A stretch of DNA of 26,948 nt from a virus: positions 1-26,948 of the IMG/VR virus record IMGVR_UViG_3300008111_001437. One strand, given 5' to 3'. This document shows, one piece after another, positions 4,900 to 26,948 of the stretch; the stretch's first letter is position 1; each line of letters begins with the position of its first letter. The position numbers were made by a program, and so were the translations under genes. A model generated the notes under the pieces. The model worked only from the letters and a program-made list of their open reading frames with translations. It had not been told where the DNA came from and ran no database searches.

Positions 4900-4928
4900 A
4901 GTATAACATCTTTATCGCCAGTTGTCAA
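4900..4928 (-). promoter_or_regulatory. Sigma-70 promoter TTGACA-17-TATACT
   Basis: On the minus strand TTGACA (4928-4923) and TATACT (4905-4900) are separated by exactly 17 nt. The -35 box lies inside the last codons of the glycosyltransferase gene. It should give early, host-polymerase transcription of the 76-residue gene and uvsE. Confidence 0.8.
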
Positions 4929-6567: not shown

Positions 6568-6571
6568 AAAA

Positions 6572-6577
6572 TATTTA
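6572..6577 (-). promoter_or_regulatory. T4-late-type promoter box for kdsA
   Basis: The minus strand reads GGTAAATATTTT and then ATG; TAAATA ends 4 nt before the chosen kdsA start at 6567, another case of almost no leader. Confidence 0.45.
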
Positions 6578-7290: not shown

Positions 7291-7335
7291 CTCTAGTCTC
7301 CTTTTAATAGGTAGCAAGTTTGATGACATGCAGAG

Positions 7336-11549: not shown

Positions 11550-12365
11550 TTAAGTCCATAGTGATTGTCTAACTTTGATTAATCGGATCATCATTTCTTC
11601 GTCTTCTTGTTCGTATTGTGCTTCCAACTCATGGCTCTTGTCAAGAGCAGTCTTGCACATTTCGGCTTCTTCTGTGGTCTTATCTTCCATATCAAGGAGA
11701 TGATAACCTTTTTCACGACGCAGATTGCAGTAGGCTGTCCATCCGCTGACATCATGAACGTCTGGACGATTTGGATAAACTTCCTTCCACCAACGATATA
11801 GTTCTAGTATTTCTTTAGCAGCCTTGGCCTGGTAGGTAGGCTCAGCCAGATGCTTCTCACCTTCTTCCAAAAACTCTTCGTTAGTTAGAGTCATTGCCCA
11901 TTCTAGATAAGCAATGCCTGCTTCGGGAGAACGCCAGTTGCGATACCATCTGCGCCACCAAGGGTAACCATATTTTTTCTGATCTCCATCGCTCCAGACA
12001 CAATAATGCCAGGCCTGTTCTATTTCAACAAAATCAACTAGTTCATTAAAAAGACATGGGAGAAAACGGTTCCCAACATCTGACCAAGCACCAGGCTTGA
12101 TATCCCTAGGATGAGCAGTAAGAGCATGACTGCGAGTAACCCAACGGTTGTTAACATAGTATCTAACATCATTGATCCTTTCTGGAATCCAGCACCAAAC
12201 ATTTTGAATTTTATCCAAACCTTCTTCAGCGATCCACCAACGGATCGGATATTTGGCTTTAGCAGCCTTTTCCCACTCTGCCCATTCTTTTCCAGTACCG
12301 CACTTTATTTTAGTAGTACCTCGGATCCAATCGGCAAATGGAGAGCATGTCCAATAATCTCTCAT
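11550..12365 (-). CDS. Trp-rich phage hypothetical protein (271 aa)
   Basis: The protein is very rich in Trp, Tyr and Arg (IRWWIAEEGLDK, WWRRWYRNWRSPE) with a helical acidic C-terminus (AQYEQEDEEMMIRLIK). I do not recognise the family. It is the first gene behind a perfect sigma-70 promoter and has AAGGA about 9 nt before the ATG, so it is probably an early gene leading the block down to 10074. Confidence 0.75.
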   Translation of the reverse strand: MRDYWTCSPFADWIRGTTKIKCGTGKEWAEWEKAAKAKYPIRWWIAEEGLDKIQNVWCWIPERINDVRYYVNNRWVTRSHALTAHPRDIKPGAWSDVGNRFLPCLFNELVDFVEIEQAWHYCVWSDGDQKKYGYPWWRRWYRNWRSPEAGIAYLEWAMTLTNEEFLEEGEKHLAEPTYQAKAAKEILELYRWWKEVYPNRPDVHDVSGWTAYCNLRREKGYHLLDMEDKTTEEAEMCKTALDKSHELEAQYEQEDEEMMIRLIKVRQSLWT

Positions 12366-12402
12366 TACAATTCCTTCTCAGACTTTATAGTCGAACACTT
12401 TA

Positions 12403-12431
12403 ATTATACAATCTTTTAGGAAACCTGTCAA
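12403..12431 (-). promoter_or_regulatory. Perfect sigma-70 promoter TTGACA-17-TATAAT
   Basis: TTGACA (12431-12426) and TATAAT (12408-12403) on the minus strand are 17 nt apart. The -35 box overlaps the 3' end of the DUF2061 gene. It would lead the early block 12365-10074. Confidence 0.85.
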
Positions 12432-12613
12432 GATGCTTTGGTTTTGCCCCATTCTATCTTTAACCAAATTCTTTCCATAATATAATGTAAGATTGCTAAT
12501 ACTATATGTATGAGTACAGCATCGCCCAATCCTGTCCACAGGGCAGTGATCAGCATGGCTGCTATTCTATAACTGATTGTTCTTGCAATAGTTCTTTGAT
12601 GTGTTTCTGTCAT
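12428..12613 (-). CDS. DUF2061-type small membrane protein
   Basis: The 61 residues begin with RTIARTISYRIAAMLITALW (7-26) and end with HYIMERIWLKIEWG, which is the DUF2061 pattern: an amphipathic R-T-x-x-K/R-T-x-x-Y-R start, two hydrophobic segments and an H-x-x-x-E-R-x-W end. The family is found in bacteria and phages, is membrane-bound and has no established function. The ATG overlaps the stop of the 91-residue gene by 4 nt, which links it to the radical SAM pair. Confidence 0.75.
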   Translation of the reverse strand: MTETHQRTIARTISYRIAAMLITALWTGLGDAVLIHIVLAILHYIMERIWLKIEWGKTKAS

Positions 12614-12885
12614 TCTAGTTCCTTATTATTTTTTCCGCAATGATGTTGACAAGGCGGAAATGGATTTGCTGAAACCCATGTATTTTCCAATATCTGTATA
12701 GCCTTGCTATTTTTGACATTGTCTATACTTACTATGTTTAAATCAATACTACTGATTTCTCCCCCAACTAGAGATTTAAAATCACTTAGATCAGGTTCGT
12801 TGGCCATTAGACAACAGGGAAAAAACAAACCTTCTGCATTAATATACGGTAAGATATTATCGGATTTACATTTTGGATCTATCAT
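12610..12885 (-). CDS. SPASM-like C-terminal half of a split radical SAM enzyme
   Basis: The 91 residues hold Cys6, Cys24-Cys25 (FFPCCLMA) and Cys79/Cys83 (CQHHC). This matches in order and spacing the auxiliary-cluster C-terminal part of the radical SAM protein at 17617-18702 (Cys243, Cys262-263, Cys335/339). It lies directly downstream of, and 20 nt inside, the radical SAM gene at 12866-13531, in another frame. It either works as a separate subunit, is joined by a frameshift, or reflects a mutation or sequencing error. An auxiliary Fe-S cluster is expected from the family pattern. Confidence 0.7.
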   Translation of the reverse strand: MIDPKCKSDNILPYINAEGLFFPCCLMANEPDLSDFKSLVGGEISSIDLNIVSIDNVKNSKAIQILENTWVSANPFPPCQHHCGKNNKELE

Positions 12886-13531
12886 TTAGTTCTCTTACTA
12901 TATCGTTTAATGATTTTGTTGGTCTAAGAAATTCAAAAGTATCGTATCTATTGCTTTCTATAACTGTAAATGAATCTAATTTTAATTTTTTTGATAGTTT
13001 ATATGCTTCAAATACTGTGTCTTCGTTGTGTTTAAAAACGATATATCTCCAAAACACTTGACATTTTGAATTACTTTTTACAGTTGTTAATGCATCTAGG
13101 ATACTTTGCCATTTACTGTTTTTTCTATATACATGATTATTAGATTCGACACCGTCTATGTTGAAATTGATTTTATCATGATTGTCTAATAACTTAGATA
13201 ACTCAGCCCACCACTCTATTTTTCTTCCTGATCCGTTTGTATCTAAGTAGATTCTAATACCGGGATAGTTTGTTTTAAGTTGTTGAACTATCTCAATGAA
13301 ATTTGGATGATAGATAGCATCTCCGTGATCACCACAAAAGTATACTAAATTAAATTCTCTAGCAGATTTGACTACAACATTGATATCGATATCAGAAATT
13401 TTTAATTTGTCTTTGGCATATGTTCTAGGACAGGCGGGACATGCCAGTTGGCATCTAGTAGTTGCTTCTATATGCAATTCTTTTATTGATCTTACAGTGG
13501 TGTTTTCTTTATGAGAATGTAGAGAAGTCAA
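12866..13531 (-). CDS. Radical SAM core protein (N-terminal part of a split enzyme)
   Basis: Cys27, Cys31 and Cys34 (CQLACPAC) are the radical SAM [4Fe-4S] ligands. YFCGDHGD at 64-71, YLDTNGSG and FNIDGVE follow in the order seen in the complete homologue at 17617-18702. At 221 residues it ends just where the homologue's SPASM-like part begins. There is no ATG or GTG before the cluster motif; the best start is the TTG at 13531, two bases after the upstream stop. The substrate is unknown. Confidence 0.8.
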   Translation of the reverse strand: MTSLHSHKENTTVRSIKELHIEATTRCQLACPACPRTYAKDKLKISDIDINVVVKSAREFNLVYFCGDHGDAIYHPNFIEIVQQLKTNYPGIRIYLDTNGSGRKIEWWAELSKLLDNHDKINFNIDGVESNNHVYRKNSKWQSILDALTTVKSNSKCQVFWRYIVFKHNEDTVFEAYKLSKKLKLDSFTVIESNRYDTFEFLRPTKSLNDIVRELNDRSKM

Positions 13532-13533
13532 TT

Positions 13534-13917
13534 TTAAAACTTTCTTTGATACCCTGCTAGGTTGAGCATGATAGAATACTGCTCATAGGCTTTTTGGACA
13601 GCAGGATTTGACTGACGATGCCAACTTTCTTCACGTTCTTTTTCCATGAGCATAGAAAACATATCAGCGTCGCTGTAGCCGTGTTTATGGTTGCCAAAAA
13701 ATCTCTGCTCCATTTCTACCAGAGCACGAAATCTGCTTTCGGGTATTTGAACTGTGTAGACTTTTTCTGTTTCATATTCTACAAAATCCTTGCTGATAAT
13801 ATCTGCTCGCAATGGATCTGTAAAATATCTAGGAGGATGGTACCTGGCCCTGCGTTTTTGATCATCTACGATTTGTATTTCGTAGTTTTTGCAAAACTGA
13901 TCAACTTTTTCTTTCAT
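13534..13917 (-). CDS. Conserved phage hypothetical protein (127 aa)
   Basis: The start at 13917 is chosen because it overlaps the thyX stop as ATGA; an upstream ATG at 13968 would lie deep inside thyX. The 127 residues include an arginine-rich stretch (DQKRRARYHPPRYF) and a helical C-terminus (FRALVEMEQRFFGNHKHG, then SMLMEKEREESWHRQ). No function is known to me. Confidence 0.7.
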   Translation of the reverse strand: MKEKVDQFCKNYEIQIVDDQKRRARYHPPRYFTDPLRADIISKDFVEYETEKVYTVQIPESRFRALVEMEQRFFGNHKHGYSDADMFSMLMEKEREESWHRQSNPAVQKAYEQYSIMLNLAGYQRKF

Positions 13918-14579
13918 TGTACAAGGCTTTCTGCTAAAGGAAATATTTCTGCAATTACTTTTGCACAAGCACGAGCAACTTCTTGATGCTCTAATTGTGT
14001 ACCGTTAGCAGAACGAAGTTCAATAAAATGTATCCACGAACGTAAGGTACCATTCATGTATAGTTTGCTTTCTATTAATCCCTCAGGCAATACTGCACGA
14101 GCCTGTTCTTTGGCTATGCCCTTAGCGATAGCCCATTCGTAGGCGCTTTTGGCATAGTCGATGACCTGCTGTTGTTGACGTTCCCAATCTTTATGTAAGC
14201 GTTCGTCATCCGTTCCGACACTGTTCTGTCTGTTTTTTGGGTCTTGAAGTCGTGCTTCTCGCAGTATAAACGACAGGTCTTTAGTAGGGTCAGCATATCG
14301 CTGACTGAATTCTTGGAAGGAGAATGATCTATGACGTAATATCTGTCTTGCAATATCTCTTGTTGTGGTAATTTCGCAACAGGCGGAGACCATTTCAAGT
14401 GGGCTCCAGTGTTGGTGTTTGACCAAGTATCGGATGAGTTTTTCTGATGTCTCTGTATTGAGTTGATTGCTTGGATTGGACACACGGGCGCAATACGCAA
14501 TGAGTTCCTGCGCATCTGCGATGCCCATGTTTGCAAATTCTGATGTTGGTTGTGAATAGGATACCAAATGTACATTCAT
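13914..14579 (-). CDS. thyX: Flavin-dependent thymidylate synthase (ThyX)
   Basis: The 221-residue protein carries the ThyX signature RHRX7S: Arg82-His83-Arg84 (RHRSFSFQEFS) to Ser92, followed by QRY. ThyX makes dTMP from dUMP using FAD, NADPH and methylene-tetrahydrofolate, which supports phage DNA synthesis. The HWSPLEM stretch (57-63) before it is also family-typical. It starts one base inside the stop of the oxygenase gene (TAATG) and overlaps the next gene as ATGA, so it is mid-operon. Confidence 0.95.
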   Translation of the reverse strand: MNVHLVSYSQPTSEFANMGIADAQELIAYCARVSNPSNQLNTETSEKLIRYLVKHQHWSPLEMVSACCEITTTRDIARQILRHRSFSFQEFSQRYADPTKDLSFILREARLQDPKNRQNSVGTDDERLHKDWERQQQQVIDYAKSAYEWAIAKGIAKEQARAVLPEGLIESKLYMNGTLRSWIHFIELRSANGTQLEHQEVARACAKVIAEIFPLAESLVQ

Positions 14580-15136
14580 TATTTTTCCTTTGTAATGATA
14601 TCAAAATTGACGATACACCGAGGACCGTTTCTAGGAATGCCTCCACTATGTGTAATTAATCCGTCAAAGAAAACTAATCTGCCTTTTTTAGGTTCAACTT
14701 CTTTTATAATTTTACCTTCTTCATTGTAAAACGCAGTTGGGCCGTCTGCATTATTAATATAATAGAGACAAACAGAATGCGGAACATTAAAGTCAGTGTG
14801 AGGCTTATAATGAGAAAATTTAGTTTTATGTGGCACAGAAAGAAATATTCTTCCAGCCGCTATATCTTGCAATATCAAATTATTTTTATCACAAACCAAC
14901 TGAGGTATCAATGTAAAATTATCTAGATATTCGCTAGTTCGACCACTGGATTTAAGAACATGAACTAAACTCAAAGGGGCAACACCATCTTCTATAGCAG
15001 TGCTTTCGTATTTGCATCGAAAATCAATCAACGGGTGTATACACTCGTCATCAACATCAGTACGTCCAAGCGTAGATAGTTCATAAAAATCTTGTAGATG
15101 TTTAGGAACTAGATCGTCATAAACTTTTAAAATCAT
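14579..15136 (-). CDS. 2OG-Fe(II) oxygenase, prolyl-hydroxylase type
   Basis: The 185-residue protein has the iron triad His113-x-Asp115 (KPHTDFN) and His163 (ITHSGG), with Arg173 (GPRCIVNF) as the expected 2-oxoglutarate anchor. The overall order, including a GRLVFFDGL strand before the second His, is that of P4H-like dioxygenases common in cyanophages and other marine phages. The substrate is unknown. It overlaps its upstream neighbour as ATGA and its downstream neighbour thyX by 1 nt. Confidence 0.85.
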   Translation of the reverse strand: MILKVYDDLVPKHLQDFYELSTLGRTDVDDECIHPLIDFRCKYESTAIEDGVAPLSLVHVLKSSGRTSEYLDNFTLIPQLVCDKNNLILQDIAAGRIFLSVPHKTKFSHYKPHTDFNVPHSVCLYYINNADGPTAFYNEEGKIIKEVEPKKGRLVFFDGLITHSGGIPRNGPRCIVNFDIITKEK

Positions 15137-16041: not shown

Positions 16042-17025
16042 ATGACACACGAATTTCAAAATATACCATTTCAAAATATAATCAAGTTTGGACAGCGGAC
16101 AATGTTAGATCGTCCTTTGTTTTCTGTCAGTTGGATTTTGGGCAGATTCTGCAATTATAATTGCTCATATTGTTGGCCGTATGCCCGTAGCGATCGAGTT
16201 GATCATCAAGAGCATGAAGTGTATATAAAGACCATAGACGAAATCAAACGCCAGGCAAGACAAAATGGATTCTCTGAATTCCATTGGAGTTTTAGTGGCG
16301 GGGAACCAACTGCTTATAAACGGTTACCAGAATTGATTAAACATTTAGACGATGGACCATTAACTCCGTATCAAAGCATACACATGACTACCAATCTTTC
16401 TCCAGGATCAAAATGGTGGAAGAATTGGTGCGACATAACAGCAGATCTTCAACGTAGAAGTATTACGGCTAGTTATCATTCAGAGTTTGCCAAGGAACAG
16501 GAATTCGGAGATAAGTGTCTACAGTTAATGAATGACAATGTTTTTGTTACTGTTAATCAAGTAATGGTGCCTGATCAGTTTTATGAACTCTATGATAGAT
16601 GCAGTAGGCTTCACAGTCGCGGTATCAACGTAACACTTAAACCGCAAAGCGATCCTACTGCTAGTTCTGTTGTTAGCGGATATACAGATGATATGATGAC
16701 TCTAATGCAAGTTGGCTTTCCGCAGAGATCCGACGGAGAAGATATCTATCAAATTGCACTGTACGATTCAGACAACACTGAATATCTATTCGATCAAGCA
16801 GAGCGATTTAATGCCTACGGTTTTAATAAATTTCAAGATTGGCGTTGCAATTCTGGATATCAAAGTGTTATAATAAGAAGCGAAGAAGTTAAAAGATCTT
16901 ATAGTTGTCATGACCAACTATTAGGTACACTAACAGCAGGGTTCAACTTATTCAAAGAACCTAAAATCTGTATTACACCGTCATGCGTTAGTTCGGCGGA
17001 TTCAAAAATACCAAAATGCAAATAG
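16042..17025 (+). CDS. Radical SAM protein with C-terminal auxiliary-cluster cysteines
   Basis: Cys37, Cys41 and Cys44 (CNYNCSYC) are the [4Fe-4S]/SAM ligands and GGEP at 86-89 is the SAM-binding motif. The C-terminal part has Cys269, Cys289, Cys310, Cys315 and Cys326, which fits an auxiliary Fe-S cluster of SPASM/twitch type. Such enzymes start radical chemistry on peptides or small molecules; I cannot name the substrate. The 327-residue gene is first of a three-gene unit and overlaps the methyltransferase gene by 10 nt. Confidence 0.88.
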   Translation: MTHEFQNIPFQNIIKFGQRTMLDRPLFSVSWILGRFCNYNCSYCWPYARSDRVDHQEHEVYIKTIDEIKRQARQNGFSEFHWSFSGGEPTAYKRLPELIKHLDDGPLTPYQSIHMTTNLSPGSKWWKNWCDITADLQRRSITASYHSEFAKEQEFGDKCLQLMNDNVFVTVNQVMVPDQFYELYDRCSRLHSRGINVTLKPQSDPTASSVVSGYTDDMMTLMQVGFPQRSDGEDIYQIALYDSDNTEYLFDQAERFNAYGFNKFQDWRCNSGYQSVIIRSEEVKRSYSCHDQLLGTLTAGFNLFKEPKICITPSCVSSADSKIPKCK

Positions 17026-17624
17026 ACACAGAACACTTACATCATTGGATGCGAGCAATACGCAACAGCAAAAATCCTATGCGCACCATGGATGCATTTT
17101 GGCGTGGCCAGATTCTTAGCAAAGAGTGGCTTATAAAAGAATTAAAAAATCAAAGACATCATGTAAAAGATTGTCCGTCTGTTGACATACATGGAGGTTG
17201 GGTGGGAACCTTAGCCAGTTTGTTGTTCCAAAGCGATTTACACATTTCTCATATTAATAGCATAGATATAGATCCAGATTGCAAAGACATAGCACTGGAT
17301 ATGAATCAAATAGAAATGGAGTCTGGAAAGTTTAATGCTATCACCGCAGACATGTGTTCCTTTTCTAGTACCGCAGATATAATTATTAATACTAGTTTCG
17401 AACATATCACCCAGGAACAGTATCTTATATGGCTTGAAAATATTCCTAAAAATAGTTTAATCGTATTACAAAGTAACAATTATAAAATACCGGAGCATAT
17501 AAGAATAGCAGAAAATCTAGATCAGTTTAAGAGCCAGAGTCAATTAGCACCAATTTTATATGCCGGTGAATTAGATCTTCCTTTGTATACTAGATACATG
17601 ATAATAGGTAAGAAATATGTTTAA
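17016..17624 (+). CDS. Class I SAM-dependent methyltransferase-like protein
   Basis: The 202 residues show the Rossmann methyltransferase order: motif I VDIHGGWVGTLASLL (56-70), the acidic end of strand 2 in SIDIDPDC (82-89), AD at 111-112, and strand 4 DIIINTSFEHI (121-131). It lies between two radical SAM genes, overlapping both (10 nt and 8 nt), so it probably acts in the same pathway. Motif I has GGWVG instead of the common GxGxG, still compatible with SAM binding. The acceptor is unknown. Confidence 0.7.
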   Translation: MQIDTEHLHHWMRAIRNSKNPMRTMDAFWRGQILSKEWLIKELKNQRHHVKDCPSVDIHGGWVGTLASLLFQSDLHISHINSIDIDPDCKDIALDMNQIEMESGKFNAITADMCSFSSTADIIINTSFEHITQEQYLIWLENIPKNSLIVLQSNNYKIPEHIRIAENLDQFKSQSQLAPILYAGELDLPLYTRYMIIGKKYV

Positions 17625-18702
17625 TTTTTCAGAATTAGATTCTGTGCATCTAGAGATTACCAACAACTGTCAGGCATCTTGTCCTATGTGTTCTAGAAAC
17701 TTCAGAGGTGGACTAGATAATCCTTATATAAAAATCAACGAATGGTCGTTAGATGACTTTCAAAATATATTCACCGAGGAAGTTCTAGGTCAAATTAAAA
17801 ATATCTACTTTTGTGGAAACTTCGGTGACCCTATAATCAATAATGATCTAGATCTAATGTGTGAATATGTCACAGCAATCAATCCTAATTTACAAATTAG
17901 AATTCATACTAATGGTGGTGCTAGATCTCAATCGTGGTGGAAATCGTTGGTAAAAAAATTACCTAAAAATCATTTTGTGATATTTGGTATAGATGGTTTA
18001 GAAGATACTCATCATCTATACAGGATAGGAACCACATATGAAAATGTCACACGTAATGCCAAAGCATTTATTGATGCTGGCGGCACAGCCGAATGGGTCT
18101 TTATAAAGTTTAAACACAATGAACATCAAGTCGACGAAGCAAGACAGAGAGCCAAAGATCTAGGATTTAGATTATTCACTGTGAAAAATAGCACTAGATT
18201 TTTAGAAGAAAAATCCAAAGTCTTAGATAAATCCGGAAATACAATCTATTACTTAGAACCGCCTAGCAATAATCAAGTGACATTGATAAGTCCAGATATG
18301 ATCAAGAATTATAAAACTTGGGTGAGCGAATCCAAAATAGATTGTTATGTATTAAACAGTAAAGAAATATATATAGACGCTTATAAAAAAATATTTCCTT
18401 GTTGCTTTTTAGCATCAACTCCATACAACTATACAGAAACTTCTGATTTAACTTTCCCTGTTAGACAAGAAATTAAAAAACAATATTCCTTGCTGGTTGA
18501 TTCTTTAGGCGGAATTGATCAATTAGATGCAGTAAATGTTGGTATTAAAAATGTTCTCAGTTCAACTACCTGGCAAACTGTTTGGGATTATTATTGGAAT
18601 GATTACAAACTTATTGTATGTGCCAGAACCTGCGGGGTTAATGAAAAACAAACTATTTCAAAACCCAAAGATCAGTTTGTAGAAAGATCTGGATTGAATT
18701 AA
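17617..18702 (+). CDS. Radical SAM/SPASM-like enzyme, full length
   Basis: The core cysteines are Cys18, Cys22 and Cys25 (CQASCPMC), followed by YFCGNFGD (64-71) in the position usual for the GGEP motif, and IHTNGG (96-101). The C-terminal part holds Cys243, Cys262-263 (FPCCFLA) and Cys335/Cys339 (CARTC), a likely auxiliary cluster. At 361 residues it is the complete version of the split enzyme at 12610-13531. It ends the three-gene unit and overlaps the stop of the opposite amidinotransferase gene by 4 nt. The substrate is unknown. Confidence 0.87.
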   Translation: MFNFSELDSVHLEITNNCQASCPMCSRNFRGGLDNPYIKINEWSLDDFQNIFTEEVLGQIKNIYFCGNFGDPIINNDLDLMCEYVTAINPNLQIRIHTNGGARSQSWWKSLVKKLPKNHFVIFGIDGLEDTHHLYRIGTTYENVTRNAKAFIDAGGTAEWVFIKFKHNEHQVDEARQRAKDLGFRLFTVKNSTRFLEEKSKVLDKSGNTIYYLEPPSNNQVTLISPDMIKNYKTWVSESKIDCYVLNSKEIYIDAYKKIFPCCFLASTPYNYTETSDLTFPVRQEIKKQYSLLVDSLGGIDQLDAVNVGIKNVLSSTTWQTVWDYYWNDYKLIVCARTCGVNEKQTISKPKDQFVERSGLN

Positions 18703-19679
18703 TTTCTAATTAAATCTAAAGTTACACAATGGAATCCGCCACCTAGCGTTCTTTCATGACGCATGGGTAACATGACACAGTCTATATTGTAGTCTTCTAA
18801 TAACTTTCTTAATGGTTCTTGATGTTCTTCAACAACAATAAGATTTGGATTAATAGAAAACACATTCATATTCATCCATATACTAGCATTACAGTATCCG
18901 GGATAATGACCTATGTCTATAGGTTCAGGTGCCCATACAATGTCCCAACTTTGTAAAGGTTTAGGTAGTTGGCTTTTGTCTTTGATCCTGCTAGGATTCA
19001 ACAACATCAAACCTTCTCGAAGAAAAGCAATAGTGCTGTCCAGATGCATATAACTGTAGATATTTTCTAAAGTATGCACCTTTGCTGAGTTACCTACTAG
19101 CGATTGTAGATACTCTGCACCTTTCTTATTGCCGCTGTTACTGACTAGATAATATAAATCGTCATTGCATCTTAAAACATTGGCTGCATCAAAACTAGGT
19201 TCAGTTTCATTTAGTGCAAGAACATCTTTGTTTTTTATACATGACGTGTTATATAATTCGTCTGTAAATTCTGGCCTTTGTATAATATAGTTTGCTTGGC
19301 TGCTATGATTTTTTAGATGTGTGTCTAAGGCTAGATATTCTAACCGACGAGACTTCAAAGGTTGAGGAGTGGCTAATATTAGATCTTTGTAAACTAATAC
19401 ACCATCTCTAGGACAATAATTGTAGTATTCCGGATCGATATTTTCTGGACGTAGTACAGTTACATTTTCTTCTTTAAGAAAGTTACAAAAAATTTCTAGA
19501 TCTTCATTGGCTTCGTCAATAACCTGTTGCGGATAAGGACCTACAGGTATTTCACTGTCGTCTACTATATCAGCATAATTTACAGTGCGCAGACTGATAT
19601 CCACATCCGGCACTTTAGCACCAGTAGCATCACCGACAATTACTGTTTTGAGTGTATCCCATTCATTCGAACTTAACAT
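18699..19679 (-). CDS. Glycine/inosamine-phosphate amidinotransferase family enzyme, copy 1
   Basis: The enzymes of this family move an amidino group from arginine to an amine (glycine, inosamine phosphate and others). The catalytic triad is visible: Asp164 (FDAANV), His212 (YMHLD) and nucleophile Cys318 (GFHCVTLD), counted from the ATG at 19679, which gives 326 residues. A TTG at 19697 would add six residues, but the copy at 24254 aligns best with the ATG start. CPRDG and RTLGGG motifs are also typical. It runs against its neighbours from a 30-nt divergent spacer shared with the oxygenase at 19710. Acceptor substrate unknown. Confidence 0.87.
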   Translation of the reverse strand: MLSSNEWDTLKTVIVGDATGAKVPDVDISLRTVNYADIVDDSEIPVGPYPQQVIDEANEDLEIFCNFLKEENVTVLRPENIDPEYYNYCPRDGVLVYKDLILATPQPLKSRRLEYLALDTHLKNHSSQANYIIQRPEFTDELYNTSCIKNKDVLALNETEPSFDAANVLRCNDDLYYLVSNSGNKKGAEYLQSLVGNSAKVHTLENIYSYMHLDSTIAFLREGLMLLNPSRIKDKSQLPKPLQSWDIVWAPEPIDIGHYPGYCNASIWMNMNVFSINPNLIVVEEHQEPLRKLLEDYNIDCVMLPMRHERTLGGGFHCVTLDLIRN

Positions 19680-19698
19680 TTTGTAATTTGTATCCAAT

Positions 19699-19704
19699 TA
19701 AATA
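19699..19704 (+). promoter_or_regulatory. T4-late-type promoter box for the 19710 operon
   Basis: AATTAAATATACTT and then ATG; TAAATA ends 5 nt before the start at 19710, leaving no room for a ribosome binding site. Confidence 0.45.
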
Positions 19705-19709
19705 TACTT

Positions 19710-20201
19710 ATGAGAAATTTTGGACACATCGAACCAACTTGGAATATTCAGCAATTTAAAGATCTAACATATAGATTTGATCCCGATCCTATTCTCTGTG
19801 ACGAGTATTCTAAATATGGACACAGTTTAGATTCGATGAAATTTTATAACTGCTTTGAAACCGATATAGATTTTTCGTTATCTCAGATATTAGATAAGTT
19901 TGATCTAAAAGGCATGACAGCCGCAGTTAACTTTTTTACACCCGGTCAATATATTCCGTTGCATTCCGACAGATATGAAAAATATACAAAGATACATAAC
20001 TTAAAAAATGCAGATTCAGTTGTTAGAATAGTTTTAATGTTAGAGGATAGTTCTCCGGGACAAGTATTACAGGTTAAAAATAAAGTTTACTGCGAATGGT
20101 CAGCGGGAGATTGGTTTTCGTGGAACGGTTATGACCCGCATGCTTTTTATAATCTCAGTAAAGAGAACAGATATGCATTACAGATAACTGGTTACAAATA
20201 A
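19710..20201 (+). CDS. Fe(II)/2OG oxygenase-like protein (Asp/Asn beta-hydroxylase type)
   Basis: The 163 residues carry His85-x-Asp87 (LHSDRY) and His144 (DPHAFYN) as a likely iron triad, with Arg154 (ENRYALQITG) as 2-oxoglutarate anchor. GQVLQV and GDWFSWNG strands between them fit a double-stranded beta-helix. The layout recalls aspartyl/asparaginyl beta-hydroxylases and related small cupins. The stop overlaps the ATG of the next gene (TAATG). Substrate unknown. Confidence 0.75.
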   Translation: MRNFGHIEPTWNIQQFKDLTYRFDPDPILCDEYSKYGHSLDSMKFYNCFETDIDFSLSQILDKFDLKGMTAAVNFFTPGQYIPLHSDRYEKYTKIHNLKNADSVVRIVLMLEDSSPGQVLQVKNKVYCEWSAGDWFSWNGYDPHAFYNLSKENRYALQITGYK

Positions 20202-21007
20202 TGATTCAAATATTCAATAATCAATTATCTTCTAACAATGTTAGATCTCTTTTAGACTATTTTCATGTAGATGATGAAACAGTCGACGCGAGACCGGATG
20301 TTAGAAGCAAACATCCTCAATGGGATAGTCAGTGGCCTAAACATATTATTAAAAATGTACTAGATAATATTTTAGATTACGATTATCGTGTAGAAGAAGT
20401 TGTGTTTTTTGATACCAAGATAAGTTATAGTTTACACGTTGACAGCGGCAAAATTGAAAGTTCGAGAAAAGGACATGTGATTATTTTTCCATTGTTTGTA
20501 GACGGAACAGGATCAACAGCACTATTTGATAATCATTGGCATTTAGATAGTACAAGATTCAGCAAAGTAAAAATAGAACCTTTTGAATATAATTTACCTA
20601 ATCGTTTTGAAAGTTGGACCTATATTAAAGATCTTAGAATACTGCTGGATCAATGTTTAAATTCGCCTAAAACTATAAATGATTTTGTAGTAGATGAAGA
20701 ATTTATATCTACTCTCCGATACCTAATAGATGCAAGACAGGATTTAAAAACAAGTAAAGTTGATGGACGATGTTATGATTACACGGATGTAGTAGGTTAT
20801 GATTCACAATTAAAATTTAATGAACATATACATGATCAAAACTTCACGCATATTCCTATAGAAACTTTACACGGGCTGACATTGAATTCTATAATACATT
20901 GGAATGTTGGTAGTTGTTTTGCTTTTGAAAGAACCAGACTGCACAGCGCCTGCTCAGGGCATAATAAAAAAATAGGTTTAACTATTTTTACTCAACGATT
21001 TGATTGA
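20201..21007 (+). CDS. 2OG-Fe(II) oxygenase-like protein with a large insertion
   Basis: A first half with His79-x-Asp81 (SLHVDSG) and strands such as HVIIFPLFV is followed by about 130 residues without clear motif. The end reads IIHWNVGSCFAFERTRLHSACSGHNKKIGLTIF, split here as a strand (SCFAFERTR), His248 and Lys257. His248 is the likely third iron ligand; the usual Arg may be replaced by Lys. At 268 residues it is larger than its neighbours. Its last 30 nt overlap the B12-type radical SAM gene on the other strand. Assignment as an oxygenase is by motif order only. Confidence 0.6.
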   Translation: MIQIFNNQLSSNNVRSLLDYFHVDDETVDARPDVRSKHPQWDSQWPKHIIKNVLDNILDYDYRVEEVVFFDTKISYSLHVDSGKIESSRKGHVIIFPLFVDGTGSTALFDNHWHLDSTRFSKVKIEPFEYNLPNRFESWTYIKDLRILLDQCLNSPKTINDFVVDEEFISTLRYLIDARQDLKTSKVDGRCYDYTDVVGYDSQLKFNEHIHDQNFTHIPIETLHGLTLNSIIHWNVGSCFAFERTRLHSACSGHNKKIGLTIFTQRFD

Positions 21008-22876
21008 GCATTTCCAATATTGATTTTTTCTTTGGTAGTGATAGGCTTTTCTAAAAAATTCTTCTTCAGTATGCTCTGATAAATCCTCATGCGATATTTC
21101 TACACACTCGGTATGTAGATCAAACAGATCTTTTATCACAGAATTATTTTTAGTTTGATAAACCAATGGATATGTTTTATTGTAGTCTATACACATTAGG
21201 TCATTGATCTCTATCAATTGTTTGTTGTTTATGTTATAGGCTTTATTGAGAAATTCAGACAATTCTTCAATAACCTGTTGTCTGTTTTTTTGGAAAAATA
21301 TACAAGTTGCAGACTTATATTCCCAATAAGTCCTATCTATTCTTCTACCCCAGAATGTGCCATTGTTAATTACATCCTCTATATTAGATCTTGTAATAGC
21401 ATGTTCATTATAAAACAAACCTTGTTTTCTTGTTTCAATATAATCTACAAGATCTAATATAAATTTTGTTTCCTTGATGCCCTGTTTCTTTAGATATTTC
21501 ATTATATAATGTCCCCAACCATAGTAGTACATCACTATGGTCCAATGGGCGATCATATATCCGTCTAATACTTCTTGCGTGTTTAATACTCTAGTTGAAT
21601 CTACAGTTCCCATAGTTTCTACAATATACGAACTCTCGTCGTCAACTGTTAACCAGAATGTGTCTAAAGGAACTTTCTTCTGTGAAAGTTTATGTTTTTC
21701 TAAATAATCGGAATTGCTCATTGGAGCATTAGGAGTAAGAGACAACGGATGAACCATTAGAAAGTGTTCTTGTCCCATGTCTATCAATTTTTGTAATCCA
21801 TCTGTAAAACTTGTAATAGTTTCTTCTGGAAGAGGCCATATCAATTCTGAATAAGTCTTAATATCGTTCTTTTTATAAAAATCCATAGCATCTCTGATAG
21901 TATTCTCTGAGAGATTAAATCTATCTATAGCCGCTAGAGTATTGTCATTTAAACTTTGTAAAGCAAAAGTAATTCCTTTAAAAAGATTCGTGCCTGCATT
22001 CTTATCTAATAAGGCCATGCTTTTAATACGTTCGGAATTATTTTTCGCCCAGTCTATATCCCAGACCTTTGGGTATCCTGTTTTTAATTTTTTTTCAATG
22101 ACATATTTCGTGATGTCTAGGTCTCTGTCAAACATACCCCAATTACTATCGCACACAGACACGTACTCAATTTGTCTTTCAGATATCCAATCAATTTCTT
22201 TATAAATTCTTTCTAAATCAAACATCTGTACTTTGTTCCAATAAGAATCGCCTATGTCACAGAATGTACAATGGTAAGGACATCCTCTCATAGTTTCTAT
22301 AGTAACCTGCCATAAGAATTTTTGTTGGTTGCGTGTTTCGTATTGATCAATTATTTGATCATAGAATCCGGATAAAATAGGACTGGGTAAACTGTCTAAA
22401 TCTTTTGTTCTTGTTACGCCTGAAATGATTTTTCCTGGTAAACTGATTCCTGAAAGTTCTTTAAAATTTCTAGTTTCTAAATTTTTTAGAATTACAGTTA
22501 ATGCTCCTTCATTCTCGCCCAACACACCTATATCGAAATAAGGATGTTTTTTCAACAAGAAAGGATCTGTAGTACTGATCTGAGGTCCACCGACAACTAT
22601 GAAACAATTGGGCCACAGTTCTTTGACTCGCTTAGCCAATGCACAGTTGTAGTTCCAATTCCATATATAACAACTCATTACCAATACATCTGGTTTTTCA
22701 ATTCGACTGACAAATGAATCTATGTTTTCTTTTTCTATTAATACTTCTTTCAAAGAGTATGTTTGTGCTACATATTCGTCAGAGATAGCGTCAAGCCAAT
22801 GATAAGAAATTGCTAACGGTAAAAACTTATTAGGTCCGTAGTTGTCTACTACCTGTATAAGATATACATTTTTCAT
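20978..22876 (-). CDS. B12-binding-domain radical SAM enzyme
   Basis: Residues 1-140 form a B12-binding-like Rossmann domain (DVLVMSCYIWNWN at 63-75, VVGGPQ at 94-99, GENEGA at 120-125). The radical SAM ligands are Cys199, Cys203 and Cys206 (CPYHCTFC). The DxHxxG motif of base-off B12 binders is absent, as in most of this class. The C-terminal 300 residues are helical and unrecognised. Members methylate unreactive carbon or phosphorus centres or rearrange carbon skeletons. The ATG directly follows the stop of the DegT-like gene. Substrate unknown. Confidence 0.88.
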   Translation of the reverse strand: MKNVYLIQVVDNYGPNKFLPLAISYHWLDAISDEYVAQTYSLKEVLIEKENIDSFVSRIEKPDVLVMSCYIWNWNYNCALAKRVKELWPNCFIVVGGPQISTTDPFLLKKHPYFDIGVLGENEGALTVILKNLETRNFKELSGISLPGKIISGVTRTKDLDSLPSPILSGFYDQIIDQYETRNQQKFLWQVTIETMRGCPYHCTFCDIGDSYWNKVQMFDLERIYKEIDWISERQIEYVSVCDSNWGMFDRDLDITKYVIEKKLKTGYPKVWDIDWAKNNSERIKSMALLDKNAGTNLFKGITFALQSLNDNTLAAIDRFNLSENTIRDAMDFYKKNDIKTYSELIWPLPEETITSFTDGLQKLIDMGQEHFLMVHPLSLTPNAPMSNSDYLEKHKLSQKKVPLDTFWLTVDDESSYIVETMGTVDSTRVLNTQEVLDGYMIAHWTIVMYYYGWGHYIMKYLKKQGIKETKFILDLVDYIETRKQGLFYNEHAITRSNIEDVINNGTFWGRRIDRTYWEYKSATCIFFQKNRQQVIEELSEFLNKAYNINNKQLIEINDLMCIDYNKTYPLVYQTKNNSVIKDLFDLHTECVEISHEDLSEHTEEEFFRKAYHYQRKNQYWKCSIKSLSKNS

Positions 22877-23467
22877 TTAATTAAAAATAGGAAGTAATGA
22901 AAGATCCGGATAATCAGAGTGCCCTATTTTTTTAGATTCTAAATCTTTTACTTTATTAAATTTTTCTATTCCTACAGCAGCAACTTCTGGAATCATATAA
23001 TAGTGATATCCCATAGTAGAAATATTCTGTTCCGGCCAGTATATATTTCTATCTCTGCCGTCATAACTCATGCGTATTAATTGATTTTTAGTTTCTAAAT
23101 CATCTACAAGTATCATTCCACCCCTGCCGATTCCTAGATGTTTATGAAATTGAAAACTAAGGCACATCATGGTATTGGGTATGTAACTGTTTGGTTTCCA
23201 TAAAACAGCCGCATCTATGATATTTGTTCCAGGAAGAAAATAATAATCCTGCCATTGTTCGTTATTCCAACCCCATTTGATGCCTAACTTTTTTAGGGTC
23301 ATTGGAACAGAAACATATGTATGTTTTGGACATAAGGTTTCTTTTATGTCTTGCAATCTAAGACACAGTTCGATACCGTGAGTACAACAGTCTACAGCCA
23401 CAGCATATGGAGATCCAAAATAATCTGCGATTGTATTTTCAAATTCGGTTACTTTATCAAAGCTCAT
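22877..23467 (-). CDS. Miniature DegT/DnrJ/EryC1-type PLP protein
   Basis: At 196 residues this is about half the normal size of sugar aminotransferases of this family. It keeps the core pattern: VAVDCCTHGIELCLRL (23-38, cofactor phosphate site), IDAAV with Asp85, and FQFHKHLGIGRGGMIL (105-120) with Lys109 at the Schiff-base position, then GYHYYMIPEVAAVG (153-166) matching the usual N-Y-R-M stretch. The C-terminal small domain is missing. The gene is intact and coupled to the B12 radical SAM gene (stop and ATG adjoin), so it is probably functional rather than decayed. It may need a partner or act as a cofactor-binding or dehydratase-like protein. Confidence 0.75.
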   Translation of the reverse strand: MSFDKVTEFENTIADYFGSPYAVAVDCCTHGIELCLRLQDIKETLCPKHTYVSVPMTLKKLGIKWGWNNEQWQDYYFLPGTNIIDAAVLWKPNSYIPNTMMCLSFQFHKHLGIGRGGMILVDDLETKNQLIRMSYDGRDRNIYWPEQNISTMGYHYYMIPEVAAVGIEKFNKVKDLESKKIGHSDYPDLSLLPIFN

Positions 23468-23510
23468 ATTGTAATTATTCCGTTATTATCTGCACCAAAA
23501 TTTTTTAGGT

Positions 23511-23516
23511 TAAATA
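23511..23516 (+). promoter_or_regulatory. T4-late-type promoter box for the 23524 operon
   Basis: GGTTAAATATTTGATC and then ATG; TAAATA ends 7 nt before the ATG at 23524. It is the only box seen before the rightward unit 23524-26948. Confidence 0.45.
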
Positions 23517-23523
23517 TTTGATC

Positions 23524-24261
23524 ATGCCCATCATTGATCGATTAATTGAAAATTACGATGTAAAAAATCTCAACTCTGTGTTTAAAGACGCGAGCCCTGC
23601 ACCTATGATAATTTTGGACGACTTTTTTCCAGAAGACACGGCTAAGAGTCTCAGCAAAGAAATTGATTCCATAGACCAAGACCTTTGCAGAAAGTTTACT
23701 AGAAACGGAAGTTACATGGAAGAATGTAATAATCTATCATTGATGCCTTCAGCACAGGATGTTATAGGGCAACTGCATTCTCAGACTTTCATGAATTGGT
23801 TAAATCAAGTTACAGGTATAAATCATCTCATACCTGATCCTTATTTGATCGGAGCAGGTTATAGTAGAAGTTTTAAAGGTGATAGTCTTAAAAATCACAT
23901 AGACTTTAATTGGAATGATACTATAAAACTATACAGAGCATTGACTCTGATAATTTATCTCAGTGAAGGATGGCAAGAAGAATGGGGCGGAAATTTAGAA
24001 TTTTCCAGTTTTGATAATCAAGATCAGATTAATAAAGTTTACATCAAATGGAATAGGGCAATAATTTGGCAACACCATGAAAGTTGTTTTCACGGATATC
24101 CAGAGCCAATAGATTGTCCTGCTGATCAATCCAGAAAGACTTTAAGACTGTTTTACTATGTTAGTAATCAGGAACCTTTAAAAGATCAACCTCCGCATAG
24201 AAGTTTATATTGGTACGATTTGCAAAATCAAAGACCAGTCGATGATAGGTCACATGAATAA
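23524..24261 (+). CDS. 2OG-Fe(II) oxygenase, prolyl-hydroxylase type
   Basis: Counted from the ATG at 23524 (245 residues), His125-x-Asp127 (NHIDFNW), His190 (CFHGYPEP) and Arg208 (KTLRLFYY) form the iron and 2-oxoglutarate sites. LTLIIYLSEGW followed by WGGNLEF is characteristic of P4H/Tpa1-like dioxygenases. A TTG two codons earlier (23518) is a less likely start. The 3' end overlaps the second amidinotransferase gene by 8 nt, so both are in one operon. Confidence 0.85.
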   Translation: MPIIDRLIENYDVKNLNSVFKDASPAPMIILDDFFPEDTAKSLSKEIDSIDQDLCRKFTRNGSYMEECNNLSLMPSAQDVIGQLHSQTFMNWLNQVTGINHLIPDPYLIGAGYSRSFKGDSLKNHIDFNWNDTIKLYRALTLIIYLSEGWQEEWGGNLEFSSFDNQDQINKVYIKWNRAIIWQHHESCFHGYPEPIDCPADQSRKTLRLFYYVSNQEPLKDQPPHRSLYWYDLQNQRPVDDRSHE

Positions 24262-25297
24262 AGTTAATTCAAATACAGAATGGGGAGCGTTGAAAGAGAT
24301 AATTTTAGGTAGAGCAGACAATGCTAGTATACCTCGCACCAAAAACAAAGACATACATTGTGTTGATTATGCAAATTACGATTCAGTAGATGCATTGCCT
24401 GGAGGATATTATCCCCAACAACTCATAGAAGAAACGCAAGAAGATTTAGATCTTTTTCAACAACAACTAGAATCTCTAGGAATAAAAGTTTTACGACCAG
24501 ATGTTTTAGATTTTGCTAAAACACATTCAACCAATGACTGGCAGTCCGAAGGCTATTATAATTACTGTCCTAGAGACAGTGCATTAGTTATAGGGGATAT
24601 GATTATAGAAACTCCTATGCCTTTGAGATCTAGATACTTTGAAAACTTTGCCTATAGAAAAATCTTTAAACAGTATTTCGATGCCGGTAGTCGTTGGATA
24701 TCTGCCCCTAAAGGACAATTACTAGATGAGTTATATGATAGAACTGATCTCAGTAAACCAACATTAACAGATTTTGAGCCGGCATTTGATGCTGCTAATG
24801 TGATTAAATGTGGTAAAGATATTTTCTTTTTAATTTCTAATTCTGGAAATAGGGTAGGTGCTAAATGGTTGCAGTCTACTCTAGGAGATCGATATACGGT
24901 TCATATCTTAGATAGTATCTATGCCTATGTGCATTTAGATACAAGCATATTACCATTGAGTGCTGGAACTGTTTTATTGAATCCTGCTAGAGTTACCGAA
25001 TCTAATCTTCCTGAATATTTTAGTTCGTGGAAAAAGATTTGGTCAGAAGAGCCTGTGGAAACACCTTACATAGAACATTGGGCTCCGGCCAGTCCTTGGT
25101 TAGGTATGAATGTGTTAAGTATTAACGATCGCACAGTGGCCGTAGAGCAGTCACAGACAGTTTTAATCAAACAGTTAGAGCGAGAAGGTTTTGATATCCT
25201 ACCAGTTCGACTTAGACATTGTAGAACACTCAGTGGAGGACCACACTGCGTGACTTTAGATACAGTTAGAGATGATCACTATGGCGATTACCACTGA
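24254..25297 (+). CDS. Glycine/inosamine-phosphate amidinotransferase family enzyme, copy 2
   Basis: From the ATG at 24254 the protein has 347 residues with the triad Asp179 (FDAANV), His227 (YVHLD) and Cys332 (GPHCVTLD). It is clearly a paralogue of the minus-strand copy at 18699-19679 (shared NEW/TEW start, YYNYCPRD, ISNSGN, LLNP, W-MNV-SIN motifs) but has an extra segment of about 16 residues before YYNYCPRD. An ATG at 24242 would add four residues; the shorter start aligns with copy 1 and has AGG in front. The amine acceptor is unknown and may differ from copy 1. Confidence 0.87.
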   Translation: MNKVNSNTEWGALKEIILGRADNASIPRTKNKDIHCVDYANYDSVDALPGGYYPQQLIEETQEDLDLFQQQLESLGIKVLRPDVLDFAKTHSTNDWQSEGYYNYCPRDSALVIGDMIIETPMPLRSRYFENFAYRKIFKQYFDAGSRWISAPKGQLLDELYDRTDLSKPTLTDFEPAFDAANVIKCGKDIFFLISNSGNRVGAKWLQSTLGDRYTVHILDSIYAYVHLDTSILPLSAGTVLLNPARVTESNLPEYFSSWKKIWSEEPVETPYIEHWAPASPWLGMNVLSINDRTVAVEQSQTVLIKQLEREGFDILPVRLRHCRTLSGGPHCVTLDTVRDDHYGDYH

Positions 25298-25841
25298 AAA
25301 CTTAATAGATTGGAATATCGTTTTAGAATCTCTAACTCCCGGAAGAGGGGATCCTATCACTATGGACTTGGTATTAAACAAGTCTACGATAAAAGACACA
25401 AACTCTAAAGTCATGGATGCCTATACAACGATTTCACAAACATGGATAGATGCAGGCTATGATTTAAAAAATATCAAATGGTTTGATTATTATCCAGGCG
25501 AACACTTTGACAAACAAATAGAAACTATATTTGAGAATTTAGTAAACGCCAAGGCTCGAAGAGTTTGGATCAGCGAAATAATGCCAGGTAGATCTGCACC
25601 TTACCATTGGGACGTGGACGATCACGAGGAGTTTTGGCTCAGTGAAGGACCCTTGATCAGGTATACCTGTTTTATAGAAAAGCCTAGTTTTGGTCATATA
25701 TTTGTTTTAGACAATCAACATTACTATAACGAGCCTCAACATTCTGTGATACAATGGAATGATCATAGAGCCTATCATGCAGGAACAAATTGTGGGCCCG
25801 AACCTTTTTATCTATTTCATTTTGTAGGAACACCAAGATGA
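25272..25841 (+). CDS. HxD-type Fe(II) oxygenase-like protein, tandem copy 1
   Basis: The 189 residues contain YHWDVDDHEE at 111-120, where His112-x-Asp114 is the likely iron pair, and AYHAGTNCG (167-175) with His169 as third ligand. It is a paralogue of the next gene: WIS, PYHWDV, FGH, W-D-R and HAG-NCG occur in the same order. The ATG at 25272 is preferred over 25281 because the conserved Trp14 then aligns with the copy. It overlaps the amidinotransferase end by 26 nt. Function is inferred from motif order only. Confidence 0.7.
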   Translation: MITMAITTENLIDWNIVLESLTPGRGDPITMDLVLNKSTIKDTNSKVMDAYTTISQTWIDAGYDLKNIKWFDYYPGEHFDKQIETIFENLVNAKARRVWISEIMPGRSAPYHWDVDDHEEFWLSEGPLIRYTCFIEKPSFGHIFVLDNQHYYNEPQHSVIQWNDHRAYHAGTNCGPEPFYLFHFVGTPR

Positions 25842-26383
25842 TAAATTATGTAGGTAACTCTAACAGTGTGATAAACTGGAGTGAATTAATTTCTATAGTA
25901 AAGGATCAGGAACCTGCTTACATAGGACCTAGCCATAGTAGAAAAGATAATATTCCCGGAGTTCACGATGTATTAGATATTTGGGATCGTGCTGGTTATG
26001 TTTTACAAAAGGACGGTGGAACAGCGGGTTGGGATATGTTTTTACCTGGGACAAATTTTGATAGAAGCATAGTTGATGTATTTGCAGAATTTGTCGGAGT
26101 AAAGACTTATAATAGTGCATGGATCAGTAGAGTCAATCCCGGAATGATAGTACCCTATCATTGGGATGTTCACGATAACGAAGAAGAATTATCTAAACTT
26201 CCTAATTTTAAAAGGTGGCATGCGCATATGTCTACCCCTCAATTTGGACATGCATTTTGCGCAGACGATAAATGCTTTTACAATCAAGAACAAGGTGCTA
26301 CATATGAATGGAGCGACAGAAGGTTCTGGCACGCAGGTGCTAATTGCGGATTAGTTCCTAAGTATATTTTTAATTTTTGGTAA
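25838..26383 (+). CDS. HxD-type Fe(II) oxygenase-like protein, tandem copy 2
   Basis: The start at 25838 overlaps the previous stop as ATGA and gives 181 residues. His108-x-Asp110 (PYHWDVHDNEE) and His165 (FWHAGANCG) repeat the pattern of copy 1; the identity by eye is moderate, so the duplication is not recent. The middle part differs (KRWHAHMSTPQFGHAF). The two may form a heterodimer or act on successive sites. Confidence 0.7.
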   Translation: MINYVGNSNSVINWSELISIVKDQEPAYIGPSHSRKDNIPGVHDVLDIWDRAGYVLQKDGGTAGWDMFLPGTNFDRSIVDVFAEFVGVKTYNSAWISRVNPGMIVPYHWDVHDNEEELSKLPNFKRWHAHMSTPQFGHAFCADDKCFYNQEQGATYEWSDRRFWHAGANCGLVPKYIFNFW

Positions 26384-26388
26384 TATAA

Positions 26389-26948
26389 ATGGATGATGTA
26401 AACGAATATTGGTGGCAGCCTGAAGAATCTAAAATAGGTTTTTGGCAAAAAACAATCAAAGATAAAACAGAATCTTCAACATTCTGTGCTTTGCCTTGGA
26501 TACATTTTGCTACAAGACCCAATGGAGATATGCGTTTGTGTTGTAGCGCCAATGCCAGCGGTGCGGGCAATGATCACACAGTTGGTCTTGTAAAAAATGA
26601 AAAGGGAACACCTGCTAATTTTGGTCATGAAACACCAATGAGCGCATGGAATAATGAATATATGCGTTCAGTCAGAACTACTATGATGGCAGGTAACATA
26701 CCTAATAGTTGTCAAAAATGTTTCAAAGAAGAAAGCAAAGGCGTGGCTAGCAAAAGGATCTGGGAAACAGCATACTGGTCTTTGGAAGGTGTTGATCTAG
26801 AAGAATTAATTAAGCAAACTGAAGAGGATGGCACAGTACCTGATAAATTGGTCTATTTGGATTTGAGACTTGGCCACACCTGTAACTTGAAATGTGTAAT
26901 GTGTAGTCCGCATGACAGTAGTCTATGGGTTCAAGATCATAAAAAGAT
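26389..26948 (+). CDS. Twitch/SPASM-type radical SAM protein, N-terminal part (cut by window edge)
   Basis: The frame is open from the ATG at 26389 to the right edge (186 codons). An N-terminal cluster region comes first: Cys33 (FCALPWIHF), Cys51-Cys52 (RLCCSANA), Cys108 and Cys111 (SCQKC). The radical SAM motif Cys165, Cys169, Cys172 (CNLKCVMC) follows, then SPHDSSLW. Having the auxiliary-type cysteines before the core motif is a layout I know from phage and marine bacterial twitch-domain radical SAM proteins. It starts 5 nt after the previous stop; a TATAAAT sequence overlaps its ATG. Confidence 0.85.
   Translation, partial: MDDVNEYWWQPEESKIGFWQKTIKDKTESSTFCALPWIHFATRPNGDMRLCCSANASGAGNDHTVGLVKNEKGTPANFGHETPMSAWNNEYMRSVRTTMMAGNIPNSCQKCFKEESKGVASKRIWETAYWSLEGVDLEELIKQTEEDGTVPDKLVYLDLRLGHTCNLKCVMCSPHDSSLWVQDHKK

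Follow-up and report, generated by a model that had tools for sequence, protein, structure and literature searches.

We analysed a 26,948-base IMG/VR virus fragment, from a lake phage with T4-like features (record IMGVR_UViG_3300008111_001437, hereafter the window) and the enzyme-rich island at its positions 16042-26948. Three genes of this island, encoding a reduced DegT-type aminotransferase-like protein (mini-DegT), a StrB-like amidinotransferase (AT) and a small oxygenase with an HxD motif, form a real module (the trio), and, with synteny of this core conserved in dozens of distinct viruses, their association is more than chance. The trio lies in a 7.7 kb cassette that behaves as cargo within a constant backbone of radical S-adenosylmethionine (SAM) enzymes (RSAM). 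On balance, and with slightly better than even confidence, we read the cassette as encoding a phage pathway to a guanidino sugar. The cassette and its core genes are as follows (PLP, pyridoxal phosphate; 2OG, 2-oxoglutarate).

18699-26388, no strand assigned: swappable cargo cassette, 7.7 kb, within the RSAM backbone
18699-19697, minus strand: cargo core, StrB-like amidinotransferase AT1 (StrB 1bwd, E 3.7e-73)
19710-20201, plus strand: cargo core, small HxD 2OG/Fe(II) oxygenase, Asp_Arg_Hydrox-like (PF05118, 7.7e-4, under the gathering cut-off)
22877-23467, minus strand: cargo core, mini-DegT PLP aminotransferase-like protein, 196 aa (PF01041, 1.5e-19, above the cut-off)

Relatives of the mini-DegT were found in at least 582 stretches of viral contigs and relatives of the AT in at least 565. 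Each linkage scan took the best 80 loci, so that linkage is established for ATs sharing about 59% identity or more with AT1; genes in the locus surveys were called with a simple open reading frame (ORF) caller. A mini-DegT lay within the fetched flank in 69 of the 77 new AT-anchored loci (the best by match), and an AT was present in 41 of the 84 mini-DegT-anchored loci. Of the 86 distinct viral loci with both, 70 had the two genes side by side or separated by one gene, and in 81 they shared a strand. The 19710-type HxD gene was found in 78 of these 86 loci, compared with 3 of the 43 mini-DegT loci without an AT (Fisher p ~1e-21, the loci being partly non-independent), and the trio was strictly contiguous in 46 of the 78. 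A search anchored on the HxD gene recovered 47 distinct loci, with an AT in 35, a mini-DegT in 37, both in 33 and either in 39. The initial annotation of this region had proposed that a DegT-type enzyme supplies an amine which the AT then guanidinates. The conserved linkage and catalytic residues support this idea: the core homologues are clustered in many viruses, not scattered singly, and the residues are conserved in alignments.

Radical SAM backbone and cargo

The backbone consists of four genes.

16042-17025, plus strand: backbone RSAM enzyme (PF04055, 1.1e-11; CNYNCSYC)
17016-17624, plus strand: probable SAM methyltransferase (MT), with Rossmann-like motifs
17617-18702, plus strand: backbone RSAM enzyme (PF04055, 5.6e-9; CQASCPMC)
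26389-26946, plus strand: backbone twitch/SPASM RSAM enzyme, cut by the window end (SPASM, 1e-4)

Among 65 distinct loci anchored on RSAM 16042, MT 17016 lay next to it in 62, RSAM 17617 was present in 50 and the twitch RSAM in 50, while an AT was found in just 6 and a mini-DegT in just 3; the RSAM profiles behind these counts are broad. The cargo is absent from the sister phage L292, where the 17617-type RSAM gene (11561-12652) overlaps the twitch RSAM gene (12645-14057) by 8 bases. Its identity to the window lineage is 90% for ThyX, 77% for RSAM1, 65% for MT, 47% for RSAM2 and 74% for the twitch RSAM. Sister phages L285 and L311 carry different inserts in the backbone region, and the insert of L297 comprises a dehydrogenase, a decarboxylase-like short-chain dehydrogenase/reductase (SDR) and 25835-type oxygenases. 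Several of the RSAM 16042-anchored phages also have the left flank of the window (glycosyltransferase (GT), KdsA, ThyX). Since the backbone pieces abut in L292 and other sisters carry other inserts, 18699-26388 behaves as cargo in a constant backbone (RSAM-MT-RSAM at 16042-18702, and the twitch RSAM at 26389).

All 13 main ORFs listed by the initial annotation for 16042-26948 were found at their coordinates, mostly overlapping. Its inventory also stood: the region encodes four RSAM enzymes, two ATs that proved StrB-like, one mini-DegT of 196 aa, one probable methyltransferase and five HxD proteins, with conserved catalytic residues. Its view of the 11 kb as a single pathway was not supported, as sister phages hold the RSAM-MT-RSAM/twitch-RSAM backbone without AT and mini-DegT, and the backbone genes therefore do not need guanidino chemistry. 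Splitting the apparent mega-island into constant backbone and swappable cargo makes each half separately testable. The initial annotation had also called for an extension to the right; in close relatives about 15-18 kb more island follows past the position of the window end, with further RSAM and oxygenase genes.

In RSAM 16042, which has relatives in at least 580 stretches of viral contigs, C37, C41, C44, C269, C289 and C315 are conserved (60 sequences), and the C-terminal cysteines fit an auxiliary cluster. MT 17016 had no match in Pfam, PHROG or NCBIfam. G61-W-x-G, D84-x-D86 and E129-H130 are kept in 35 relatives, and these Rossmann-like motifs are what make it a probable methyltransferase. 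A complete homologue of the truncated 26389 protein (L003:12148-13569) belongs to the NF033640 twitch RSAM family (410 bits, cut-off 170); no relatives of this homologue were found among PDB sequences at E 0.1. The RSAM enzymes match viperin models weakly and over the shared core, and a reading of the region as antiphage defence was rejected.

Predicted activities of the cargo enzymes

The PLP lysine (K109) and the ring-nitrogen aspartate (D85) of the mini-DegT are conserved in 155 sequences. For its structural model (pLDDT 95.5) the best match is GDP-perosamine synthase (3.0e-10), followed by AHBA synthase, AtS13 and ArnB. GDP-perosamine synthase and ArnB are nucleotide-sugar 4-aminotransferases. 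The full DegT/DnrJ/EryC1/StrS fold comprises about 360-390 aa including a C-terminal domain, and the 196-aa protein covers part of each target (TMt ~0.4). In bacterial and Prochlorococcus contigs (L026, L027, L031, L032, L034, L035) the mini-DegT belongs to a fixed cassette of cupin, small methyltransferase, mini-DegT and GDP-mannose 4,6-dehydratase-like genes, the dehydratase matching PF16363 at 4.3e-101. A bacterial version of the trio was sought through the mini-DegT in genome contigs, and an AT was found in one (L038) of 30 loci. Two metagenome-assembled genomes checked, with rich phage-like clusters (L030 and L038), also encode T4 gp23 and may therefore be phage contigs binned with bacteria.

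AT1 and AT2 match the Pfam ADI family weakly, and StrB, which acts on an aminocyclitol, is the closest solved structure for both; both are nearer to StrB than to glycine amidinotransferase. In the AT1 family H218, D220 and C324 are present in 106 of 106 sequences and D170 in 103 of 106. The Asp/His/Cys triad of the StrB/AGAT pentein fold lies in the motifs FDAAN, HxD and GGxHCxTLD, and the triad residues of AT2 are likewise conserved. Both proteins are predicted to be arginine-dependent amidinotransferases acting on an amine. In G001 (L002/L135) the AT1 match fell into two pieces with a stop in each, perhaps through a frameshift or an assembly error; a separate scan matched the full length.

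The small HxD protein of the trio has H85-x-D87, H144, R106 and R154 conserved in 78 sequences, which provides the HxD...H iron triad and a 2OG-binding arginine. The profile of its family gave nothing convincing against PDB sequences. The remaining cargo genes are the following.

20201-21007, plus strand: HxD-motif protein, putative oxygenase (H79-x-D81 and H248/H254 conserved, 5 sequences)
20978-22876, minus strand: cobalamin-dependent RSAM C-methyltransferase-like enzyme (B12-binding PF02310 and PF04055; CPYHCTFC)
23518-24261, plus strand: 2OG-Fe(II) oxygenase (PF13640, 2OG-FeII_Oxy_3, 4.7e-12)
24242-25297, plus strand: second StrB-like amidinotransferase, AT2 (StrB 1bwd, E 8.6e-99; 42% identical to AT1)
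25272-25841, plus strand: HxD-motif protein, putative oxygenase (H112-x-D114 and H169 conserved, 11 sequences)
25835-26383, plus strand: HxD-motif protein, paralogue of 25272 (33-41% identical to it; H109-x-D111 and H166 conserved, 12 sequences)

Relatives of all five HxD proteins keep the HxD...H pattern. Family profiles did not match the 20201, 25272 and 25835 proteins, in which the motif is conserved, and on this motif we regard them as putative 2OG oxygenases. The B12-dependent RSAM enzyme (B12-RSAM) is nearest to TokK (9.7e-66) and CysS (5.3e-48). Its cobalamin-binding domain and its RSAM domain with CxxxCxxC are those of the TokK/CysS/KedN5 class, and its score falls below the threshold of the KedN5 subfamily (219.6 bits, cut-off 700).

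Sugar context, proposed pathway and alternatives

A UDP-sugar dehydrogenase profile matched in 53 of the 86 viral loci with AT and mini-DegT, and any of four nucleotide-sugar profiles in 67. In sister phage L016, genes for a dehydrogenase and an SDR lie between two AT1 copies; the SDR is nearest to human UDP-glucuronate decarboxylase (7.7e-22). Mini-DegT, HxD gene, dehydrogenase, decarboxylase-like SDR and AT lie on one strand in L207, the last three overlapping. Candidate Arn-type partner enzymes (UDP-sugar dehydrogenase and decarboxylase-like) are encoded in L016, L207 and others, and were not found on the contigs G002 and G003. The UDP-sugar dehydrogenases of L016 (13781-14629) and L207 (8386-9126) are reduced to 246-282 aa, keeping the cysteine motif GGKCLPKD and lacking the C-terminal domain.

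GT-like families (c7, c16, GTc2 and c6) were found in 81 of the 86 loci. The c7 profile gave no convincing match against PDB sequences, and its model (pLDDT 86.9) matched GT-B glycosyltransferases, SdgB first, with low TM-scores. In L017 and L018 c7 is fused to the HxD domain. The c6 family is called GT-like from a DxD-type motif alone. Huge repetitive proteins are encoded at the cassette end in four loci (L017:17203-20580, L018:14829-19397, L150:13446-18992 and L138:8002-12870); in L138 and L150 their C-terminus is a c6 GT-like domain, with degenerate copies upstream.

The initial annotation had left the product as a small molecule, a sugar or a surface glycan. As genes for nucleotide-sugar enzymes and glycosyltransferases accompany the module, a sugar is favoured over a free small molecule. 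We infer each reaction, the order, the identity of the sugar and the acceptor from homologies; gene content, conserved catalytic residues, linkage, the modelled mini-DegT fold and the cargo-less sisters are observations. A nucleotide sugar would first be converted to its 4-keto form. The UDP-sugar dehydrogenase and UDP-glucuronate decarboxylase-like enzyme would do this in sister phages and the GDP-mannose-4,6-dehydratase-like enzyme in other phages, unless the host takes on the step. The mini-DegT would then place an amino group on C4, and the StrB-like AT would transfer an amidino group from arginine onto this 4-amino sugar. The HxD oxygenase would hydroxylate the product, which lineage-specific enzymes may C-methylate (B12-RSAM), oxidise or carbamoylate, and a soluble glycosyltransferase would attach the sugar to a cytoplasmic acceptor. 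The flanking RSAM/methyltransferase backbone would be a separate constant module that receives differing cargo.

Several findings weigh against this pathway. No 4-keto-sugar enzyme was found on G002 and G003, the contigs closest to the window, so that the window lineage would need supply from the host or from genes outside the contig. Compared with DegT enzymes, the mini-DegT is missing the C-terminal domain and some of the core, and its activity is a prediction. About half of the mini-DegT virus loci (43 of 84) have no AT nearby. The c7 and c16 GT calls come from a weak fold match (TM ~0.36), and the pathway does not account for AT2, the additional oxygenases or the RSAM backbone.

In a simple hydropathy scan of the 31 island genes of G003 no membrane protein was detected. 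The priming transferase PF02397 or the flippase PF01943 was found in none of 12 records, the controls matching in 9 and 13 of 14. The island would not by itself suffice for lipid-linked synthesis of the O-antigen type, and these findings favour a cytosolic acceptor or host machinery. A thymidylate-synthase-family protein (the family of dCMP hydroxymethylase) occurred in 4 of 14 records and not in the complete genome of Synechococcus phage S-SCSM2R, which makes DNA less likely as the acceptor, at least there. We tentatively place a virion protein such as a tail fibre first among acceptors, though at somewhat less than even probability. A host surface glycan, reached through host enzymes, is a weaker candidate; phage DNA is unlikely, and a free small molecule with no acceptor very unlikely.

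The best of the alternatives, to which we give a low probability, is that the cassette makes a guanidino small molecule directed at the host or at competing phages, such as an osmolyte of the guanidinoacetate/creatine type or an antibiotic resembling the aminoglycosides. StrB/AGAT-type enzymes make such molecules, and the same classes recur in aminoglycoside and nucleoside antibiotic pathways. A StrB-like AT, a DegT protein, a B12-RSAM methyltransferase and a NodU-type carbamoyltransferase all have homologues here, and viral guanidinoacetate N-methyltransferase was enriched in a marine survey (PMC11360552). However, the linkage to nucleotide-sugar enzymes and glycosyltransferases is strong, the ATs are closer to StrB than to the glycine enzyme, and the simple hydropathy scan detected no membrane exporter in the island.

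Slightly less probable still is a guanidino sugar that forms a hypermodified base on phage DNA and protects it from restriction, like arabinosyl-hydroxymethylcytosine in RB69 or the cytosine pentose of Thanatos. Pentosylated DNA exists in T4-like phages (PMC12838424), dehydrogenase and decarboxylase would yield a UDP-pentose, and all the enzymes look cytosolic. The lack of a thymidylate-synthase-family protein in the trio-bearing, complete S-SCSM2R argues against it, post-replicative modification still being compatible.

We consider it improbable that the cassette is a loose hypervariable region of independently gathered genes with no joint pathway. The site takes different inserts in sister phages, and the AT2, 20201, 23518 and 25272/25835 families each occur in just 3-4 of the 86 loci. 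Independent collection does not predict the persistence of the trio, whose genes keep together, mostly as direct neighbours, on widely differing backbones and in widely differing gene orders. Direct modification of a peptide or protein (RiPP-like or tail-fibre maturation, with side chains as the targets of RSAM/SPASM enzymes and oxygenases, and lysine- or ornithine-like amines as those of the AT) is equally doubtful: the backbone RSAM enzymes are related to the twitch/SPASM group, in which many members act on peptides, and the region abuts tail-fibre genes, but the mini-DegT and the nucleotide-sugar neighbours do not fit and no precursor gene was noticed, although no systematic search (small ORFs <60 aa) was made.

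Flanking genes, distribution and known systems

Two further T4-like features lie to the left of the island.

2-1705: gp9/10-type baseplate/fibre protein
13914-14579: ThyX

On the minus strand, a Kdo-8-phosphate synthase gene (5743-6600; KdsA 3fs2 in the PDB, E 1.3e-99; labelled DAHP-type aldolase in PHROGs) adjoins a phrog_1962 glycosyltransferase gene (4912-5742). The same strand encodes a QueD-like 6-pyruvoyl-tetrahydropterin synthase (6763-7329) and, outside the region first annotated, a fifth RSAM enzyme (12866-13531) and an additional 2OG-Fe(II) oxygenase (14579-15136). Immediately right of the island on G003 is a protein with an Mtd_N (major tropism determinant) domain (L019:7560-9026), so that the island is flanked by fibre-type genes.

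The window had no megablast match among 50,697 phage records. Of these records, 7 had an AT2 relative and 8 a mini-DegT relative, S-SCSM2R being the only isolate seen with both. T4 gp23 was present in 10 of 28 tested records that carry the genes, S-SCSM2R and contigs of 200-364 kb among them. It is a little short of an even chance that a large family of aquatic T4-like phages, nearly all uncultured, makes a guanidino nucleotide sugar with the reduced three-enzyme core and uses it to mark virions, host glycans or DNA with a positive charge. Such a mark would be a kind of sugar not described for viruses in the literature searched, which left out most subscription journals. That literature gave nothing relevant on guanidino sugars, or on an amidinotransferase with O-antigen.

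The initial annotation knew of no described phage pathway with this gene set. The trio with its sugar context was not found in the literature searched. A phage cluster of related content is not new: five RSAM genes and a putative glycine amidinotransferase were reported in 2010 as an interchangeable module of the Campylobacter phages CP220 and CPt10 (Timms et al. 2010, PMC2853527), where they were explained no further than by host fitness. That module resembles the island in its clustered RSAM genes and AT in a T4-like phage, adjoining two sugar-transferase-like genes. It differs in that its AT is just 28-36% identical, and a mini-DegT search of Campylobacter phages gave no match. If correct, the proposed pathway would partly answer why T4-like phages have such clusters, a puzzle since 2010. 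Host-recognition clusters of pelagimyophages combine lipopolysaccharide genes with RSAM cassettes (PMC7029224). Like the island, they belong to T4-like aquatic phages and to a hypervariable region, with tail fibres, glycosyltransferases, a UDP-glucose 6-dehydrogenase and RSAM cassettes, but amidinotransferase and DegT are unmentioned there.

Among bacterial pathways, the same two superfamilies are proposed here in the sequence used for streptomycin, and among solved structures both ATs are most closely related to StrB. In streptomycin synthesis the DegT aminotransferase StsC acts before the inosamine-phosphate amidinotransferase StrB. Here the DegT protein is a 196-aa mini form, and nucleotide-sugar enzymes and GTs replace the cyclitol enzymes. 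The ArnB/Ugd-ArnA pathway to 4-amino-4-deoxyarabinose (Ara4N) and GDP-perosamine synthase (PerA/RfbE) resemble the phage set in the mini-DegT fold and in UDP-sugar dehydrogenase with UDP-GlcA-decarboxylase-like or GDP-mannose-dehydratase-like partners. Unlike these systems, the phage set adds an amidinotransferase and an oxygenase, and its aminotransferase and dehydrogenase are truncated. Guanidino-sugar chemistry is known mainly from antibiotics such as streptomycin. If our reading is correct, many aquatic phages would encode a short pathway to a cationic guanidino sugar and would provide slimmed-down forms of well-known enzymes (an aminotransferase of 196 aa and UDP-sugar dehydrogenases of 246-282 aa).

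The closest cultured counterpart is S-SCSM2R (PQ898602), a trio carrier on Synechococcus WH7803, in which 7 kb encode mini-DegT, RSAM, the HxD protein, AT and five glycosyltransferases. It is a marine cyanophage, and its AT and mini-DegT are 58% and 54% identical to those of the window. With the core genes adjacent in many diverse aquatic phages, a widespread and unstudied sugar chemistry may now be open to laboratory tests.

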